The notes under the pieces were generated by a model. That model made no database searches and was not told the origin of the DNA. It was given only the letters and a program-made list of their open reading frames with translations. A stretch of 64,000 bases of DNA from Atopobium sp. oral taxon 810 str. F0209 (GTDB lineage: Bacteria > Actinomycetota > Coriobacteriia > Coriobacteriales > Atopobiaceae), in assembly GCF_000466405.1 (NCBI RefSeq), contig NZ_KE952966.1:1-64000 (forward strand). Reading direction: 5' to 3'. Of this stretch, positions 56,084 through 64,000 are shown one piece after another. The translations under genes and the position numbers were made by a program. Every line of letters begins with the position of its first letter. Within the stretch, counting starts at the first letter, position 1.

Positions 56084-57049
56084 TTAGTTCGCACTCTTTC
56101 CCGTGAGCCCTTCGACGATGACATCCGCATCGTGTTTAAGAAGGTCGAGATATGTAGGCACCGGTCCTGCTGCTTCGGAAAGCGAATCCACATAGAGCAT
56201 GTGAGCTTCGTCCGTCTTGAGGATTGCTCCTGTTTCGTCGGCAACTTGCTGCATAGCTTTGGGGCTGACGGTTGATTCGCAGAAGACGGAACGTACCTGC
56301 TGTTTCTTGACCTCTTCAACCACCTTTGCAATCTGTTGAGGAGTACCTTCCTCAGACGCATTGACCGGCCAAAGGTAGATCTCATTCAAACCGGTATCGC
56401 GGCAAAGATACGAGAAAGCTCCTTCGCACGTTACCAGCGTGCGTTGGTTTTGAGGCAGGGAAGAGAGCTCTTCCGTGAGATCCGAGGAGATCTTTTGAAG
56501 TTTTTCCTTGTACTTCTCGCCGTTTTTTGCAAAGTCATCCGCATGGTTGGGGACCAAAGCACTCAGACCCTTTACGATATTGTCAACGTAGATTTGGCCA
56601 TTTGCGGGAGACATCCATGCGTGCGGATTGGCTTCTCCCGCATACTCTCCTTCAGAGATGTTCATGGGAGTGACCCCTTGGCTCAAATCTACGCGCTCAG
56701 CTGCCGAGTCGGCGACAAAACGTTCAAACCAGCGCTCAAGCCCAAGGCCGTTGTTGAGGATCAGGTTGGCTTTCTGGGCAAGCTTAAGGTCTTCGGGCGT
56801 TGGTTCATAATCGTGAATTTCCGCTCCCGCCTTTGTGATGGATTGAACGTCGCAAAAGTCGCCCGCAATATTTGCGGCCATGTCTTGGATGACCGTAAAC
56901 GTGGTAAGTACGAGCGGCTTTTTCGCTTCTTTTGACTCGGGAGTGGGAGAGGTATTGTTTTCACAGCCTGCAAGAGATGCAGTGGCTAAGGTGCCGAAAA
57001 GAGCTATGGCTTGTCGGCGTGTAAAAGACGATGCTGAGAAACGGTACAT
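56084..57049 (-). CDS. Metal-binding lipoprotein, PsaA/MtsA/MntC-like (Mn or Fe)
   Basis: This cluster A-I binding protein captures a divalent metal. The signal has a twin-arginine start (SFTRRQAIALFG) and a lipobox SLAGC. Metal ligands expected in the family are seen: His in IHDYEPTPEDLKLA, His in NPHAWMSPANGQIYVDNI, Glu in TCEGAFSYLC, and Asp in YVDSLSEAAGP. The TPQQIAKVVEEVKKQQVRSVFCES block resembles the Mn/Fe group more than ZnuA, as no His-rich loop is present. Length is 321 residues. It heads the metal ABC operon. Confidence 0.92.
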   Translation of the reverse strand: MYRFSASSFTRRQAIALFGTLATASLAGCENNTSPTPESKEAKKPLVLTTFTVIQDMAANIAGDFCDVQSITKAGAEIHDYEPTPEDLKLAQKANLILNNGLGLERWFERFVADSAAERVDLSQGVTPMNISEGEYAGEANPHAWMSPANGQIYVDNIVKGLSALVPNHADDFAKNGEKYKEKLQKISSDLTEELSSLPQNQRTLVTCEGAFSYLCRDTGLNEIYLWPVNASEEGTPQQIAKVVEEVKKQQVRSVFCESTVSPKAMQQVADETGAILKTDEAHMLYVDSLSEAAGPVPTYLDLLKHDADVIVEGLTGKSAN

Positions 57050-57099
57050 GTAAGCCTCTTTTCCAATTTGTTGTGTGTCATTGCCATTCTAATTCATAG

Positions 57100-57117
57100 A
57101 GTTAGCCTTGTCTAACT
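57100..57117. promoter_or_regulatory. DtxR/MntR-like operator upstream of the metal transporter
   Basis: AGTTAG (57100-57105) and CTAACT (57112-57117) form an inverted repeat with a 6-base spacer. This gives TTAG-N6-CTAA, close to the TTAGGxTAGxCTAAxCTAA type of DtxR-family boxes. It lies about 50 bases before the binding-protein start, the right place for metal-dependent repression. Confidence 0.55.
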
Positions 57118-57294
57118 ATTTTTGTTTCAATTAAGCTGCCTGAACGAAAACAAGACGCAAAATTGGATACAAATTAAGGTTGCCTGAGTCGAAGAGGGAA
57201 ACCTCTGGCTGAAATGAGAAACCCATCGGGGAAAGGGAAACCTCTGATAAGTAACCGGAAATCCTTTGAATGGCAGCGGTTGTGGAGAATAAGA

Positions 57295-57630
57295 ATGTCT
57301 ATCACAGTGAATTTGAGATACGCAGGCAAAGACGGCAGTGCTCTTGCGTTTACCCATGAAATGTCTGAGAACGGTACAGTGGCTAAAATTCGCGCCGAGG
57401 AAGGTAACTTGCGTTACGAATACTACCAGTCGCTCGATGACTCGGAAACGGTTCTGCTCATAGACAGTTGGAGAGACCAGCAATCCATTGATAAGCACCA
57501 CGCTTCGCCGATGATGCAGACCATCGCGGCTCTTCGGGAGAAATATGATTTGCGCATGACGGTGAGTCGTTCAGGATCCAGACCGCGCGGTTACGGTACA
57601 CGCTTCTCAGGGAGTGGAACACGTCTATGA
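57295..57630 (+). CDS. Antibiotic biosynthesis monooxygenase (ABM)-domain protein
   Basis: The 111-residue protein has an ABM/dimeric ferredoxin-like fold: SITVNLRYAGKDGSALAFTHEM, IRAEEGNLRYEYYQSLDDSETVLLIDSW, and DKHHASPMMQTIAAL. Such proteins act on quinols or small aromatics, or degrade reactive metabolites. The start at 57295 is the domain start and has GGAGAA upstream. The last about 20 residues are Arg/Gly/Ser-rich and lie exactly where GC content jumps, so the original C-terminus may have been replaced. Small AGAGG-GAAA-CCTCT hairpins lie upstream at 57193. Confidence 0.8.
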   Translation: MSITVNLRYAGKDGSALAFTHEMSENGTVAKIRAEEGNLRYEYYQSLDDSETVLLIDSWRDQQSIDKHHASPMMQTIAALREKYDLRMTVSRSGSRPRGYGTRFSGSGTRL

Positions 57631-57635
57631 TCCCG

Positions 57636-58366
57636 TCAAAGGTGACTCCCGTCTTCGCGACCTCCGGTTCGGGGATGCGGAAACACTCCGTCCCCCACGC
57701 GCAGGAGCGCGAACTCGCCGTCCACCGTCACCATGGACGACTCTACCACCGCGTCGTCGTGGCGGCTGCCGGTGCGGCCGCACGAGGGCCCCACGTCGTT
57801 TCCCCCCGGCCCACGGCGCCAGCAGCCCCGAGGCGTGCTGGCTGTTGCGGTCGCTGTGGAAGATGGCCCCCTCGGCCACGTAGCCGCGCCTGCGGGCCGG
57901 CCCGAGGGCCGAGACGACTGTGTCGGCGGCCATGCGCCCGGGCACACGCCCACCCGACCACCATGCGGGTGTTGAGGCCGGTCACGGTGGCCAGGGACAG
58001 CCAGCCCTGCCCCGTGCGCAGGTAGGTGATGTCGCCTGCGGGCCTGTAGGCGGGCACGGGGCCGGTGAGGTCGCGCGCCACCAGGTCCGGCTTCGGGGGC
58101 GCGCGCCCATCGGGTATCGCGGGGCGCCTCTCGGCATTGGGCGTCACGCCGCGTACGCCCGGCTCGCGCATGCACTTGCGCACGCGGTGGAGCGCCACGG
58201 GCCCGGGCTCGGGCGGCAGGGACGCGTGCACCATGCGCGCCCCGGAGCGGCGGCCGCCCCCAAGCCACACGCGCTCCACGGCGTCGCGCATGTGTAGGTG
58301 CCTGTCGTATCTCTCCATGAGTCCCCCTAAGCGCCGAGAGGCGGCGCATTCTGCCTGGACAGTCAT
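57636..58366 (-). pseudogene. IS3-family transposase (OrfB), frameshifted remnant
   Basis: Transposase text is spread over three frames. RVRKCMREPGVRGV, PDLVARDLTGPVPAYRPAGDITYLRTGQGWLSLATV and RMVVGWA are in one. VVSALGPARRRGYVAEGAIFHSDRNSQHAS is in a second. DDAVVESSMVTVDGEFALLRV is in a third. The DDE residues (Asp in DITYL, Asp in HSDRNSQ, Glu in VVES) are recognisable, but at least two frameshifts and a lost 3' end make it non-functional. OrfA is not seen. GC is far higher than in the chromosome to the left. I see no gene in 58367-58659. Confidence 0.8.
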
Positions 58367-58659
58367 CCGGGCTTCCTAGGGGCGCGGGGCATCCCTCGCA
58401 AGGGAGCGTATTGCGTGCGCGCGCGTGTGCTCCTGTCGCTTGGCATCCGGGTGGGGAGGCACGTCATCGAAGCGTCAGCGCGATGGGTGCGACCCCCGGT
58501 GCCTACAAACGCTATCTCGTGCGTTGTGTGCACAAGATAGGCTGCTTGATTCGCAGTCTGAAAGAAAAACGACATGGGCTATACCCAATCCGATCCGATA
58601 CAGAGCCAGGTGCCGGCCCAGTCGATAGAGGTCAGGAGGGGCAGCCACAGATTGCAGGG

Positions 58660-59268
58660 CTATTCCCTATCCTCGGTCGTTTTCGCGCTGTAGCGGAAGT
58701 CGCACCTGTCGTCCCCTCCACCGATGGTTTTAGTGCGAGTGAGGCGCAGGCCCATCATCTCGGCCATGGGGTAGTCCAGGCGGCAGAGGTAGGGTGTGAG
58801 CTCGGGGTGGCCCTCGTCTGCGCACAAGCGGCAGATGCCGCATGCCGTGTAGTCGAGCCCGAAGTCGAAGATGCCGTCCGGCTCCACGATGTCGAACACC
58901 CAGTTGTTCTCGCCTTGAAGCCGATGCGACTCGGCTGCGTTCTTCAGGCGTCCTTTGGTCTTCGAAGGGCTCAGGTAGGAGCCTCCCACGCTCCACGTAG
59001 CCCGGCGGATGAGCCAGCTCGCCTCGAAGCCGTGCTCGATGGCCAGGTAGTTCTCCTCCGCTGTGAGGCCGGTGTGACGGTTCATGGCGATGAAGTACGC
59101 GCCCATCGCGTACGACGCAACCAGGCTGTCTTGGCTCATGGGCTTTGCCCTCCGCAGGATGGCGGCGTACTCTCTCGCGACGCGCCTGCGTACGGGTGCG
59201 GCGACGTTCCGTCTCGTCAGCCTTCCGAAGAACCAGCCTATCGCCCTGAGCCTAATCCCGTAGTCCAT
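58660..59268 (-). CDS. L-2-amino-thiazoline-4-carboxylic acid hydrolase (ATC hydrolase) family protein
   Basis: The C-terminal half (DFGLDYTACGICRLC, TPYLCRLDYPMAEMMGLRL, GGGDDRCDFRY) matches the ATC-hydrolase family, including its Cys-x2-Cys-type and final Cys-Asp-Phe pattern. The N-terminus is helical and basic (MDYGIRLRAIGWFFGRLTRR). Length is 202 residues. Family members outside the founding Pseudomonas enzyme have unknown substrates, so the activity is not inferable. The gene starts inside the end of the hydrolase gene (31-base overlap) with GGAGGGAG upstream and is the last of three coupled genes. Confidence 0.8.
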   Translation of the reverse strand: MDYGIRLRAIGWFFGRLTRRNVAAPVRRRVAREYAAILRRAKPMSQDSLVASYAMGAYFIAMNRHTGLTAEENYLAIEHGFEASWLIRRATWSVGGSYLSPSKTKGRLKNAAESHRLQGENNWVFDIVEPDGIFDFGLDYTACGICRLCADEGHPELTPYLCRLDYPMAEMMGLRLTRTKTIGGGDDRCDFRYSAKTTEDRE

Positions 59269-60041
59269 GCCGCTCTCCCTCCAGTCGCCAACCCTTCGAT
59301 CCGTGCCGCGAACTCCTGCGGTCTGCCCGGCGCCATTCCGCCGTGGCCCACGTCCTCAAGCATGACGAGCTCCGCTTCCGGGAACATCCTCTCCATGTAC
59401 CCCAGATCCCACTTGCGGTCTTTCCTCTCCGCCTCCGCACACCAGTACTGCACCCGCGCTTCGGATTCTTGTGGTTCCGCGGGCATCCGGTAGTTGTTAC
59501 AGGACTCGAATGTCCGCCAAATCGTCCTATAGCTCATGAAGCGGAGGGTCTCGGAGACGTATTGCAGATCCTCCTCGGAGTATTCCCCGGTCGAAAACGC
59601 CTTCTCCAAAAGTCCCGCGCCACCCCATCTGCCGATGCACACCAGCAGGAAATCCCGCACGGCGATGAGCCTTGTCACAATCCAAGGCAGCCGGTAGGGC
59701 ATTATCCCGCCGTCGACCACGGCGTTTTGAATGTCGACCTTCTCGTCGGCCAGCATCCTTAGGACGACCGACCCTCCCATAGAGCAGCCGTACAGGCACG
59801 CGACCTGGCGACAGCCGTTCGCGTCCAGCCATCCGGCAAGCTCCGTGGCGATTTGCTCCACGCTCGTGTAGTCCTCATCGGGCGCTGTCTCGTCGTAGCC
59901 GGGCAGTGCCGGGAGGATCAGGTGGAATCTGTCCCGCAGGAGCGGAATGACGTGCTCGAAGTAGTCCCACATCACTGCGGAGGGATGAATCAGGACGACG
60001 ACATCCCCATTCTCTTTTCCGAATTCGTGGACGGTCATCAT
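59238..60041 (-). CDS. Alpha/beta hydrolase
   Basis: The fold is shown by VVLIHPSAVMWDYFEHVIPLLRDRFHLILPALPGY, the nucleophile elbow LYGCSMGGSVVLRML with Ser in GCSMGG, and late acid and His residues (VMLEDVGHGGMAPGRPQEFA). The ATG at 60041 overlaps the methyltransferase TGA (ATGATGA), so translation is coupled. Length is 267 residues. Clustering with a methyltransferase and an ATC-hydrolase-family protein suggests a short pathway on one small molecule or ester; the substrate is unknown. Confidence 0.85.
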   Translation of the reverse strand: MMTVHEFGKENGDVVVLIHPSAVMWDYFEHVIPLLRDRFHLILPALPGYDETAPDEDYTSVEQIATELAGWLDANGCRQVACLYGCSMGGSVVLRMLADEKVDIQNAVVDGGIMPYRLPWIVTRLIAVRDFLLVCIGRWGGAGLLEKAFSTGEYSEEDLQYVSETLRFMSYRTIWRTFESCNNYRMPAEPQESEARVQYWCAEAERKDRKWDLGYMERMFPEAELVMLEDVGHGGMAPGRPQEFAARIEGLATGGRAAWTTGLGSGR

Positions 60042-60850
60042 TTCGCCACCAGGCGCATGCGCACCACCAGCGTGCGGCCCCACTTGTCTGAGAAGTACAT
60101 GAAGATACGGGTTCTCAGGGCGAGCCTGCGCCCGAGCTTCCTCGCGTCATCGTAGAAGCCGCTGCGCTCGAGCAACTCGCAGCCGGCCCTCTTCGCGAAA
60201 CCCTCGGGATCGTCGAGGCCGAAGTGCATCATCGCGTCGACGTTGCCGGTCTTTTGCACATAGCGGTTCGTGAACCTGAGCCCGCCGGAGTTGGTCGCGT
60301 CGAAGACGAGCTCGCCTTCTGGGAAAGCAGCCTTCATGTCGGCTATCATGGCGAGAATCTGCTCCTCGTGGAAGTACTCCCAGACTCCCGAGACCACAAG
60401 CAGCGTGGGAAGCCCTGCGTCGATGCGGGCAGCCCATTCCATCTCGAACATGTCGCCTGCGACGAACTCCTCGTCAGGTCCATCCCCGAGCACGCGGCGA
60501 CGGATGTCGATCACGCTAGGCAGGTCTACTTGGTAGCAATGTGCCGTATCCACCCCGGCGCGGTTCCAGGTGGTTTCCAGCCCAGCGCCGAGAAAGATGA
60601 CGTTGCCGTTCGGGTGCCTTCCCAGGAATGCTGCCACCATCCCGTCGATCACATGACTGCGTGCGGCGGAAGCGATGCACTCGTACTCGCTGGAGTTCGC
60701 CCGTATCGCCTCGGTTGGGATCGCAGGCTCGAGGGAGAGCGCCTTCTCGTCGTGGAAGTACTCGGGGAACCGCCTGCTCACGTAGATGCGTGCCACGAGC
60801 GGTATGTAGGTCGTGTCGGGAATGCCCTGAAGGATATTCTCTGCTGCCAT
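60038..60850 (-). CDS. Class I SAM-dependent methyltransferase, PPM/TcmP (leucine carboxyl methyltransferase-like) family
   Basis: The 270-residue enzyme has the PPM-family SAM-binding block VIFLGAGLETTWNRAG, the acidic VDLPSVIDIRRRVLG and DMFEMEWAARI, and VVSGVWEYFHEEQI. Relatives methylate carboxyl or hydroxyl groups of natural products (TcmP) or protein C-termini (LCMT). The ATG at 60850 has GAGGTGGAG upstream. The 30-bp sequence spanning this site recurs inverted at 61379. It is the first certain gene of a coupled three-gene set. Confidence 0.85.
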   Translation of the reverse strand: MAAENILQGIPDTTYIPLVARIYVSRRFPEYFHDEKALSLEPAIPTEAIRANSSEYECIASAARSHVIDGMVAAFLGRHPNGNVIFLGAGLETTWNRAGVDTAHCYQVDLPSVIDIRRRVLGDGPDEEFVAGDMFEMEWAARIDAGLPTLLVVSGVWEYFHEEQILAMIADMKAAFPEGELVFDATNSGGLRFTNRYVQKTGNVDAMMHFGLDDPEGFAKRAGCELLERSGFYDDARKLGRRLALRTRIFMYFSDKWGRTLVVRMRLVAK

Positions 60851-60873
60851 CGCCTCCACCTCTCATTCCGCAG
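60844..60873 (-). repeat. 30-bp inverted repeat, left arm (spans the methyltransferase start)
   Basis: On the minus strand CTGCGGAATGAGAGGTGGAG is followed by GCGATGGCAG. It matches 61379-61408 on the plus strand at 29 of 30 positions. The arm contains a stop codon, the ribosome binding site and the ATG of the methyltransferase gene. Confidence 0.9.
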
Positions 60874-60967
60874 GGCCGATGTGCACGGGCCTCGTTGCGC
60901 CGAGCCCCTTCTCCAGGCCGGAGGCGTCGGGCGGGATCTTGATCCTGTCTGGCATGGTCGGCCCCAT
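60863..60967 (-). CDS. Possible small peptide ORF before the methyltransferase
   Basis: A frame of 34 codons (ATG 60967; second ATG 60955 giving 30 residues starting MPDRIKIPPDASG) ends at TGA 12 bases before the methyltransferase ATG, so it would be coupled to it. Its end reads RPVHIGPAE. No clear ribosome binding site precedes it. It could be a precursor or leader peptide, or merely the remnant of an interrupted gene. Confidence 0.3.
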   Translation of the reverse strand: MGPTMPDRIKIPPDASGLEKGLGATRPVHIGPAE

Positions 60968-61106
60968 CGATGCAGTAAGACAAAGCTAATTTCTTTGAGT
61001 AAGTATAGTCTAAAATCCCCCTGCAGTGTGCACCTCCTAGGGTGGGAAAAAATCACGCCCCAGCGTATAATCACGGCACAACCGAATCACCTGGCCGCAC
61101 AGAAAA

Positions 61107-61187
61107 GGCTCGGAGGGACGGTGCCATTTTCTGGCGGATATGGTAGTCCTATCACGGCACTGTCCTTCCGAGCCGGACAGGACTACC
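61107..61187. repeat. Interleaved inverted repeats, candidate IS ends
   Basis: GGCTCGGAGGGACGGTGCC (61107-61125) is complementary to GGCACTGTCCTTCCGAGCC (61156-61174) at 17 of 19 positions. GGTAGTCCT (61142-61150) is complementary to AGGACTACC (61179-61187). The arrangement looks like terminal repeats of one or two insertion elements placed head to head. Confidence 0.6.
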
Positions 61188-61427
61188 ACCTTGAGCGGCA
61201 ACAAACGACACGGGCGAGCGCCCTCGGCCACTCCATGGGACGACGTATCCGAGCGGGACCTCGACCCCACCCAGATCGCCGTGATGCGCTCCAGCAGGAG
61301 CATCTACGGCTTCCGTCACCACGAATTCGACGGTGACGCCGACTTCTACAACGGCTACCCGCGCAACAGCTGCCCGCACTGCGGAATGAGAGGTGGAGAC
61401 GATGGCAGATTCTGGCGTTGTTTTTGA
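61140..61427 (+). pseudogene. Truncated zinc-ribbon ORF, probably transposase N-terminus
   Basis: The frame includes PTQIAVMRSSRSIYGFRHHEF, DFYNGYPRNSCPHCGMRGG and GRFWRCF, then stops. CPHCG followed by a WRC resembles the N-terminal zinc ribbon of several transposases. Nothing downstream continues it in any frame that I can recognise. It starts inside the interleaved inverted repeats, consistent with a decayed element. Confidence 0.4.
61379..61408 (+). repeat. 30-bp inverted repeat, right arm
   Basis: This arm matches 60844-60873 in inverse orientation with one mismatch. Like the left arm it places GAGGTGGAG before an ATG, here at 61402. The two arms enclose 505 bp. Confidence 0.9.
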
Positions 61428-61560
61428 CGTGACGACCTCAGAGATGAGAACGCAGATTATTGGCTCTCTGGAAGACAGAATCAGCGGCATTGAAGATGAT
61501 CTGCATTTCGTGACCCGCCAGTGTGCGTGCTCGGAGGCAGAGGCCAGGCGGGTTTACTAG
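61402..61560 (+). CDS. Small protein ORF, 52 residues, unknown
   Basis: ATG at 61402 follows GAGGTGGAG at a suitable distance. The product has MADSGVVFDVTTSEMRTQI, SLEDRISGIEDDLHFVTRQ and CACSEAEARRVY, an acidic helical pattern with a paired Cys. Its initiation region is shared with the methyltransferase through the 30-bp repeat. No family is recognised. Confidence 0.4.
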   Translation: MADSGVVFDVTTSEMRTQIIGSLEDRISGIEDDLHFVTRQCACSEAEARRVY

Positions 61561-61601
61561 TTACAGTCTATTACATTCCAACAAGTGTGGGGTGGGCCAC
61601 G

Positions 61602-62531
61602 CTACCTTTGCATCTTCTTGAGATTCTCGACCTTCCAGAGCGCCTCGGGATTTACGGCTGCGGCCTTTGCCATCGACTCGTCCGGGAAGACGAGCTCCGG
61701 CCGGTAGTCACCTCCTGCGAGGCACTCGAGGTATTCGTGCTCTCCGTCTGTCCGGGGCAGGACCCATTCTGCTATGAACCGCTCGGCATCCTTCATGAGC
61801 CCCTCAAGGGTCGGGCGCTCGGTCGAGGAGCGCAGCATCGGGTAGAGCTGGTCCGCGAGCTCGGAAAGCCTGTCCGTGAAGCGCCGTTCCCTGCCCTCGA
61901 ACGGTTTCGGGAAGCATGCGGAGAGCGAGGCGTAGTAGAGGGCGAGCCGATGCGCTGTTTCTTGCCCATCGGGCTCGAGCGACCCGTAGACGCCGAGCAG
62001 ATTCGAGACGTCGTAGAGGTCGCGGACCTTCACGCGATCGAAGAACGCCTTCACCTTGCCGGCAGCGAGCTCGGCGTCCGCGAACGTGCGGACCTTGGCG
62101 CCCGGCCTCACGGGCGTCTCGCGCACGACGGGCACCATGATGGGCGAGCGGTTCATGTAGATGCAGTCGACCTTCACATGGTCGACTCCCCAGTCTCCAC
62201 GATAGCGAAGGAGGAAGGTGCGTCCGGCGTGCCCGCCGGGATGCGCCTCCACCGCGTAGCCCAGCGCTCGTGCTACGGCCTCAATGCCCTCTTCAATGTG
62301 TGGTTTGTCGGCGAGCATGCCCTCATGGGAAATGCTCCCGATGTAGGAGACGTCGATGTCTACCGAGAGCCTCGGCACGTCGAGCATGAAGAGGTTGATG
62401 GCCGTGCCGCCGTGGAGCGCCAGCTTGCCCCTGAGGGCGGGGTGCCGCTCCATCTCGTCCAGAAGGTCGAGCAGTCGCTCGACCTTGTCCACGGTCCTTG
62501 GCTCGAACTCGTCGGCGCTCATGGTGCCCAT
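61602..62531 (-). CDS. abiEii: AbiEii/AbiGii-family nucleotidyltransferase toxin (type IV toxin-antitoxin)
   Basis: The 309-residue protein has the nucleotidyltransferase core KLALHGGTAINLFMLDVPRLSVDIDVSY with the GG and Asp-x-Asp residues, then VDCIYMNRSP, and KVKAFFDRVKVRDLYDVSNLLG, a conserved AbiEii block carrying Lys and Asp. AbiEii toxins modify tRNA or nucleotides and arrest growth unless countered by AbiEi. The start at 62531 has AGGAG eight bases upstream; ATG 62522 would give the 4-base ATGA overlap with the antitoxin stop and is also plausible. Confidence 0.9.
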   Translation of the reverse strand: MGTMSADEFEPRTVDKVERLLDLLDEMERHPALRGKLALHGGTAINLFMLDVPRLSVDIDVSYIGSISHEGMLADKPHIEEGIEAVARALGYAVEAHPGGHAGRTFLLRYRGDWGVDHVKVDCIYMNRSPIMVPVVRETPVRPGAKVRTFADAELAAGKVKAFFDRVKVRDLYDVSNLLGVYGSLEPDGQETAHRLALYYASLSACFPKPFEGRERRFTDRLSELADQLYPMLRSSTERPTLEGLMKDAERFIAEWVLPRTDGEHEYLECLAGGDYRPELVFPDESMAKAAAVNPEALWKVENLKKMQR

Positions 62532-63274
62532 GAGAGGATCTCCTCTTCTGTCTCGGGAAGGTACAGCTTCCAGCGAGGGCTCCAGTCCTCGTTCTCCCTT
62601 GACCTCGGGTCGAGCTTGGACGGGCCGCTCCCGAGCCTCGCTTCGAGCGACAGGAGCTTCTCGCTCGCCACGCCCCAGTCAGCTTGCTTTGCTTCGAGGA
62701 GCCAGCCCGTGCGGGCGACGACGGCTGCAGGAGCGCTACCGAGGATCTCGAGCAGGGCATCAACGTCGAGGTAGGGAAACGCCGAGCAGGACCGCACAGC
62801 CTCCTCAACGCCGCCAACCCTCCCGGGGTATGTGAGGCAGTCGACGAGAGTCTGCTCGCGCGTGGTCACGCCAACCGTCCCATACGACTTTGAGCGCATG
62901 GTCTGCGCCTGCGGGTTATCGTCGAGGTTGTACGGGACGTAGCGGACGCCCCCGTACTCGAACGGCGAACGTACCTTCGCGGACCTGAACGAGCACTCGA
63001 AGCCGACGTTGTGGGCGACGCCGTGGGCGACGAGGGCGGAGTGGTACGAGATCACGGCCTCGGGGTCGACCGTCCTGGCCACAAGGAACGGGTCGGGCGC
63101 CTCGCCGGTAAACCTGCCGGTCTTGGACACATAGATGCCACGGCGCACGCGCTCCACCTCGCCGGACTTGACGGCGCGCTGCAGCTGCGTGTGCGCGGCC
63201 TCCCTCGACGTTATGGCATAGATGTCCTCTGTCGTGAACGCCTGGTGTGATGCTATGTAGTCTTTGAACTTCAT
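62519..63274 (-). CDS. abiEi: AbiEi-family antitoxin / transcriptional repressor
   Basis: The 251-residue protein has an N-terminal winged-helix of the AbiEi_4 type (FTTEDIYAITSREAAHTQLQRAVKSGEVERVRRGIYV) and a C-terminal domain with YHSALVAHGVAHNVGF and the TLVDCLTYPGRVGGVEEAVR block typical of the family. It should repress its own promoter and counter the toxin. The ATG lies only 8 bases after a perfect -10 hexamer, with no ribosome binding site, indicating a leaderless message. It overlaps the toxin gene. Confidence 0.9.
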   Translation of the reverse strand: MKFKDYIASHQAFTTEDIYAITSREAAHTQLQRAVKSGEVERVRRGIYVSKTGRFTGEAPDPFLVARTVDPEAVISYHSALVAHGVAHNVGFECSFRSAKVRSPFEYGGVRYVPYNLDDNPQAQTMRSKSYGTVGVTTREQTLVDCLTYPGRVGGVEEAVRSCSAFPYLDVDALLEILGSAPAAVVARTGWLLEAKQADWGVASEKLLSLEARLGSGPSKLDPRSRENEDWSPRWKLYLPETEEEILSWAP

Positions 63275-63282
63275 ACAGACGA

Positions 63283-63313
63283 ATTATAGTGGAAACGGGT
63301 ACAAATTGTAACC
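63283..63313 (-). promoter_or_regulatory. abiE promoter with overlapping palindromic operator
   Basis: On the minus strand TTACAA (63311-63306) is followed by a 17-bp spacer and TATAAT (63288-63283). The imperfect palindrome GGTTACAATTTGTACC (63298-63313) covers the -35 hexamer. The expected transcription start falls at or within 2 bases of the abiEi ATG (63274). Confidence 0.7.
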
Positions 63314-63356
63314 GTATCCATGCATTATTAGCTGTAAATCAGCGTTATTCATCTGT

Positions 63357-63425
63357 TCACATCCAGCGCGATACGGCGCGGAAGAACCAGCGCACGAAGC
63401 GCCAGACGAGCCTAAAGACGCCCAT
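63357..63425 (-). CDS. 22-residue Arg/Trp/Phe-rich amphipathic peptide
   Basis: The ATG at 63425 lies inside the last codons of the integrase gene, six bases after a consensus AAGGAGG. The 22 residues begin MGVFRLVW and end SRWM. The five Arg at positions 5, 9, 12, 16 and 20 have i+4/i+3/i+4/i+4 spacing, which puts them on one face of a helix. Val, Phe, Trp and Leu fill the other face. It resembles membrane-active or small hydrophobic peptides; no known family is recognised. Confidence 0.5.
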   Translation of the reverse strand: MGVFRLVWRFVRWFFRAVSRWM

Positions 63426-64000
63426 GGCCTGCCTCCTTCTCCTCTGCTGCGGCGAGCATTGCCTTGAGCTGGTCCACCGAGAAGCTGAGCGCGGGCTCGC
63501 GGCGCTTGGGCGCACCGAGGACGTTGTCCATGATGGCGTCGCCGTAGCCGCTCATCTCGGCGTTGAAGCTCTCCTCGACCTTGCTCACGGCGGCGCGCTT
63601 GGCCTCCGGATCCACGTCGGCGTAGATGTCCAGCGTCATCGACACGCTCGCGTGCCCCAGGTAGCTCGCCACGGTTCGCACGTCGCAGCCTCCGGCGATC
63701 ATCATGGTGGCGAAGGTGTGCCTGAGGTCGTGGAAGGTGCACTTGAAGCCGTTCATCTTGCAGAAGGCGGCGAAGTCCTTGCCGAGCTGCGTGGGGTTGT
63801 AGGGCCTGCTCTTCTCCTCCTGCGTTCCCAGTATGTAGGGGTCTCCGAAGGGAAGCCCGAACTCGTTGGCGATGCGCACGGCGTCCGCCCTCACCAGGCG
63901 CAGCATGTCGAAGGTGCGCCGGGTGAGGGGGATTGTCCTCAGGGAGCTCGAGGTCTTGGGCTCCTTCACGTAGAAGCCGCCGTCGCCGTTTCCCAGGGCG
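63412..64000 (-). CDS. Tyrosine recombinase/integrase, C-terminal part (runs off the window)
   Basis: The visible 196 codons carry catalytic-domain motifs: TSSSLRTIPLTRRTFDMLR, the His-x2-Arg of TFHDLRHTFATMMIAGG, and LGHASVSMTLDIYADV with the later His and nucleophile Tyr. The first catalytic Arg and the arm-binding N-terminus lie beyond 64000; the frame stays open to the window edge (LGNGDGGFYVKEPK). A 60-residue tail follows the Tyr. It is the probable integrase of the high-GC island. Confidence 0.92.
   Translation of the reverse strand, partial: ALGNGDGGFYVKEPKTSSSLRTIPLTRRTFDMLRLVRADAVRIANEFGLPFGDPYILGTQEEKSRPYNPTQLGKDFAAFCKMNGFKCTFHDLRHTFATMMIAGGCDVRTVASYLGHASVSMTLDIYADVDPEAKRAAVSKVEESFNAEMSGYGDAIMDNVLGAPKRREPALSFSVDQLKAMLAAAEEKEAGHGRL

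Follow-up and report, generated by a model that had tools for sequence, protein, structure and literature searches.

Among described systems, the equibactin (eqb) locus of Streptococcus equi, which is carried on the mobile element ICESe2 (PMC3672683), offers the closest regulatory parallel to the locus analysed here. The equibactin cluster is repressed by the DtxR-like protein EqbA, which needs Fe, Zn or Mn to bind the eqbB promoter, and the operator palindrome proposed for it contains GTTAGATGTATCTAAC (PMC3672683). No ATC-family gene is among the eqb genes described (PMC3672683). The ATC_hydrolase family itself (PF14196) includes the bacterial L-ATC hydrolase of Pseudomonas sp. ON-4a (Tashima et al. 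2006, cited in PMC5847659), and a similarity of the family to the V4R/H-NOX/TRAPP superfamily has already been reported (PMC5847659).

Here we describe three genes from a window of 64,000 nucleotides, positions 1 to 64,000 of contig NZ_KE952966.1 from Atopobium sp. oral taxon 810 str. F0209. Like the eqb locus, the trio lies on an apparently mobile island, and the core of the proposed eqb operator, GTTAG-N6-CTAAC, is identical to a box found in front of many of the trio's relatives (PMC3672683). It differs from eqb in that its host genome (G000) gave no match to the NRPS Condensation domain (PF00668), in that its products are enzymes of a processing type, and in that its own boxes are degenerate.

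Three overlapping genes on a probable integrative island

The trio spans 60850–58660 of the minus strand, in the order methyltransferase, alpha/beta hydrolase and ATC_hydrolase-family protein, and all three genes are intact. The original prediction had described them as overlapping or nearly overlapping, and the junctions agree: the methyltransferase stop overlaps the hydrolase start at AAATGATGACC, and the hydrolase ends 31 nt within the ATC gene. The three families proposed at that time were likewise recovered by Pfam scores against curated cut-offs, on which family assignments here are based, while several neighbouring genes were named by eye without a scan.

The methyltransferase (60038–60850, minus strand; ATG at 60850, with a same-frame GTG at 60859) is assigned to the LCM/PPM-fold SAM methyltransferases. 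It matches LCM (PF04072) with 32.7 bits against a cut-off of 22.3, and its structure model (pLDDT 91.2) finds its best solved fold matches in Rv0731c, LCMT1 and ML2640c, and a match also in PPM1. LCMT1 and PPM1 are carboxyl methyltransferases. The window protein resembles the PPM/LCM enzymes in fold and in its LCM domain, but differs from them in sequence, since no solved structure was matched by sequence at E 0.01 and the score against the TIGR00027 subfamily (32.5 bits) falls below its cut-off of 93.55. The alpha/beta hydrolase (59238–60038, minus strand) matches Abhydrolase_6 (PF12697) with 69.4 bits against a cut-off of 26.3. Its GCSMGG nucleophile motif is kept in an alignment with relatives (as YGCSMGG), together with a candidate catalytic His.

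The ATC-family protein (58660–59268, minus strand; 202 residues) scores 84.4 bits against PF14196 (cut-off 28.1), and C143, C162, R178 and C189 are invariant in a 40-sequence alignment. Its gene is present in a single copy in the host genome by protein search, and the family model agrees. What it shares with L-ATC hydrolase is the Pfam family; the gene context differs, since the gene here stands with a methyltransferase and a hydrolase under a probably different control. The structure model (pLDDT 92.7) weakly resembles H-NOX, TRAPP/Bet3 and phenol-sensor V4R domains, in agreement with the similarity reported for the family (PMC5847659), and the fold search returned no match below E 0.001. Unlike members of that superfamily, the protein carries no fused signalling or DNA-binding domain.

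Comparing each gene with one relative (Nei-Gojobori) gave dN/dS values of about 0.25 for the methyltransferase, 0.21 for the ATC gene and 0.19 for the hydrolase, and all three therefore appear to be kept by purifying selection. A defence function was considered and rejected, as the trio had no match in PADLOC.

At about 57.5 kb the GC content climbs from about 0.50 to 0.60–0.74, and near 66 kb it drops again to about 0.5, so that the trio stands on an island of 60–74% GC in a host genome of about 50%. The same island holds an AbiEii/AbiEi type IV toxin-antitoxin pair (61602–63274, minus strand) and, adjoining it, a tyrosine integrase (63412–64000, minus strand) whose ORF extends past the window and ends at about 64.8 kb on the contig; this longer ORF scores 91.1 bits against Phage_integrase (PF00589). 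An integrase and a foreign composition, both marks of an integrative element, are present, in agreement with the original placement of the trio on a mobile element. A degenerate ORF on the island with a sub-threshold HTH_21 match is read as a transposase remnant, and the ZnuA-like gene at the left flank has relatives of only about 30% within the genus. A plasmid or phage home for the trio was rejected, since ATC relatives on plasmids reach only about 35% over half of the protein, phage records gave no ATC relatives, and methyltransferase matches on plasmids are all below 60%.

A search of 57000–64000 for repeats also turned up a 33-nt inverted repeat (94%) between 60844–60876 and 61376–61408. 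Both arms carry the same ribosome-binding site and start (ATGGCAG), one before the methyltransferase and the other before a 52-codon plus-strand frame, and it looks as if a leader had been copied.

Recurrence of the genes and of a palindromic box

PF14196 was found in 92 of 397 genomes of the order, and a relative of the methyltransferase in 122 of the 397. With the best 70 methyltransferase matches used, 15 of 140 ATC matches have a methyltransferase relative no more than 3 kb away, compared with an expectation of about 0.3. In G266, G114 and G338, ATC genes stand paired with the methyltransferases nearest to that of the window (about 71%), and the closest ATC-methyltransferase relative (L032) has no hydrolase. 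Hydrolase relatives lie beside or near ATC genes in five genomes (G251, G068, G082, G424 and G303), and in G292 one adjoins a truncated methyltransferase frame. Equivalent but non-orthologous parts make up the operons at L041 and L042, each of which groups an ATC gene with a class I methyltransferase and with an alpha/beta hydrolase other than that of the window. At L117, one run joins an ATC gene to methyltransferases, a pair of hydrolases and a protein of the metallo-beta-lactamase fold; two further proteins of this run, named by eye as a small membrane protein and as START-like, matched no Pfam family. Among the loci examined, the exact gene order with the window's own orthologues occurs only in the window. 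The original prediction of a functional unit acting on a small molecule is therefore strengthened by the recurrent pairs, the hydrolase neighbours and the equivalent-enzyme operons, while the expected recurrence of the trio itself is seen as pairs and as trios of equivalent enzymes, its exact order remaining confined to the window.

Some relatives stand in other surroundings. A scan of genome contigs found one, in Parvimonas, in which the methyltransferase is split across two frames and no ATC gene was recognised. Another, in Fusobacterium vincentii (L124:4992-5801), lies without a box amid genes read by eye as purine biosynthesis genes. The operons of L041 (7358-10246) and L042 (7008-9897), which come from genomes of two different families, are 98% identical over 2.9 kb, which points to recent transfer.

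Directly before the ribosome-binding site of the relatives' methyltransferases lies the palindrome GTTAG-N6-CTAAC, sometimes in two copies. Loci totalling 826 kb, most of them retrieved through protein similarity, contain 30 unique sites of it, compared with a mean of 0.34 for 29 permuted half-site palindromes, and the same half-sites at spacings of 4, 5, 7 and 8 have 0 sites. An exact box lies within 3 kb upstream of 14 of 33 ATC genes, and none was found there for the other 19. Genome-wide counts against control matches were 17 vs 0 in G266, 9 vs 0 in G114 and 38 vs 0 in G396, with few boxes in many genomes. In G266, boxes mark the promoters of an NRPS gene with Condensation and PP-binding domains, an aryl-AMP ligase gene and an ABC half-transporter gene, which is a further likeness to eqb, and also those of genes for Trep_Strep membrane proteins, DUF3793 proteins and ferrochelatase. 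One further G266 box lies upstream of a gene for a DtxR-type repressor (Fe_dep_repress).

By sequence comparison, the box is the same as GTTAGATGTATCTAAC, the core of the operator palindrome proposed for EqbA (PMC3672683). Because of this identity, we take the box of the relatives as a putative site for a metal-responsive repressor of the DtxR/EqbA type, and a metal-responsive regulon in these relatives is predicted with fairly strong support. A literature search for the box sequence together with DtxR found no record. What is new here is this regulatory link, that is, the box before methyltransferase and ATC genes. A sharply defined box which matches the proposed operator of a metal-dependent repressor turns a vague guess about small molecules into a testable one.

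The promoter of the window trio has no exact copy of the box. It has two tandem operator-like sites on the minus strand, ATTAGCTTTGTCTTAC at 60975–60990 and TTTAGACTATACTTAC at 60999–61014, which lie 24 bp apart and each have 2 mismatches to GTTAGN6CTAAC; TTTAGACTATACTTAC contains TATACT, a -10-like hexamer read by eye (61002–61007). The shared variant TTAGN6CTTAC occurs in the 64 kb, on both strands, only at these two sites, a count that is descriptive because the variant was defined after the sites were seen. If up to 2 mismatches to GTTAGN6CTAAC are allowed, sites are rare as well, with 13 in the 64 kb and with only 4 of 1276 overlapping 200-bp windows holding two. From these sequences, the trio is predicted to be likely under the control of the degenerate tandem boxes.

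The window does hold one exact box (57101–57116, no strand assigned). It lies a short way beyond the island edge and separates the ZnuA-like gene, which is accompanied by an ABC-3 permease and an ATPase, from an ABM-domain gene. The other exact boxes of the host genome lie before a class I methyltransferase gene and before an ABC half-transporter gene, giving 3 in all against 3 control matches and thus no excess. The host also encodes a DtxR-like protein of 147 aa, on its contig C19. The core sequence of the 57101–57116 box also occurs in G175, G044 and G056.

What the operon might do

Taken together, these observations lead us to favour, tentatively and at a confidence that stops short of an even chance, a module induced by metal starvation for the processing of a small molecule that carries metal, with an imported siderophore as the likeliest case. 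An imported siderophore would be likelier than a home-made NRPS product because no Condensation domain was detected in the host. More broadly, the trio probably helps the cell, under metal scarcity, to deal with small molecules that carry iron or resemble heme. In the model that we infer, from the protein that binds the box and metal control of the window operon through to substrate, chemistry and step order, the trio would be one operon among shuffling small-molecule enzyme clusters of a DtxR/EqbA-type metal-responsive regulon, clusters assembled from LCM-type or class I methyltransferases, ATC/V4R-type proteins, hydrolases of the alpha/beta or metallo-beta-lactamase fold, and ABC half-transporters. 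During a shortage of iron or of a related metal, the repressor would leave the operator and the enzymes would be made; the methyltransferase might then modify the metal-carrying molecule, the hydrolase might cut an ester-like bond in it, and the ATC-family protein might bind it or open a ring, so that the metal would be released or the carrier disposed of. Several observations speak against the metal reading: the trio lacks an exact box, the host has no excess of boxes over controls, 19 of the 33 ATC genes have no exact box within 3 kb, and the Fusobacterium relative of the methyltransferase sits in a purine operon without one.

The main rival keeps iron limitation and changes the substrate. 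The operon would process a tetrapyrrole, such as heme, a porphyrin or a breakdown product, with the methyltransferase methylating side-chain carboxyls, the hydrolase removing the esters and the ATC protein serving as tetrapyrrole binder. The ferrochelatase gene behind a G266 box and the ATC fold fit tetrapyrroles as well, against the siderophore reading: the ATC model seems to share weak features with H-NOX, a heme domain, and with V4R domains, and the tolyporphin cluster contains tolI, a gene of PF14196 type (PMC8401325). The nearest curated model for the hydrolase is the BchO equivalog TIGR03056, but its 37.6 bits fall far under the cut-off of 172.55, and the lack of an ATC fold match below E 0.001 also counts against a tetrapyrrole, which we consider unlikely on balance. 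A biosynthesis or detoxification module for some other small molecule (an antibiotic, quinone or xenobiotic), unconnected with metal in this host because the link seen in the relatives was lost or is incidental, would account for the missing exact box and the lack of box enrichment in the host genome, and it would suit clusters that also hold metallo-beta-lactamase-fold and BAAT-type hydrolases and TetR-type genes (read by eye). Yet the trio promoter has two tandem near-boxes of a kind unique in the window, and the box link is strong in relatives; we see this explanation as a minority prospect, improbable but deserving notice.

Could the three genes be unrelated passengers brought together on the island? 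Their exact order is confined to the window, and L032 lacks the hydrolase, but the frames overlap, purifying selection appears to act on all three, the pairing is recurrent and equivalent-enzyme trios occur elsewhere, which makes mere assembly quite improbable. The original prediction had also raised a modified-peptide pathway, for which a 34-codon frame before the methyltransferase (60863–60967, minus strand; 30 codons from the second ATG) could serve as a RiPP-like precursor, as it has a plausible ribosome-binding site and directly precedes the trio. When its conservation was checked, however, the frame was not seen in the upstream regions of seven close relatives, in which the box sits directly before the ribosome-binding site of the methyltransferase, and its end is part of the inverted repeat with 61376–61408, as a local rearrangement would give. 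A functional peptide product is therefore unlikely, and, with no peptide-modifying enzyme recognised nearby, this variant of the prediction is highly improbable.

Returning to the metal-starvation reading, we note that the order is rich in PF14196 proteins and LCM-type methyltransferases, and that the literature searches made here found no role assigned to them in it. It is conceivable, though we hold this wider claim with less confidence than the reading of the trio itself, that they belong to an undescribed and widely shuffled metal-regulated system for processing small molecules in the order, with EqbA-type operators for its control and with islands and a phage cargo cassette as the means of its spread. 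In such a system a carboxyl methyltransferase and a hydrolase would work alongside the ATC/V4R protein, which would handle thiazoline siderophores or tetrapyrroles. If this is true, metal-scavenging enzymes, besides transporters, would travel on islands and phages.

Two side observations concern the distribution of the box. The 38 copies in G396 are the largest count among 354 genomes. On a phage contig with Phage_capsid and PhageMin_Tail genes, a cargo of two methyltransferases, one LCM and one class I (L123:5964-7480), separates the tape-measure gene from a small ORF of the tail region, and an exact GTTAGN6CTAAC box lies upstream of this cargo.
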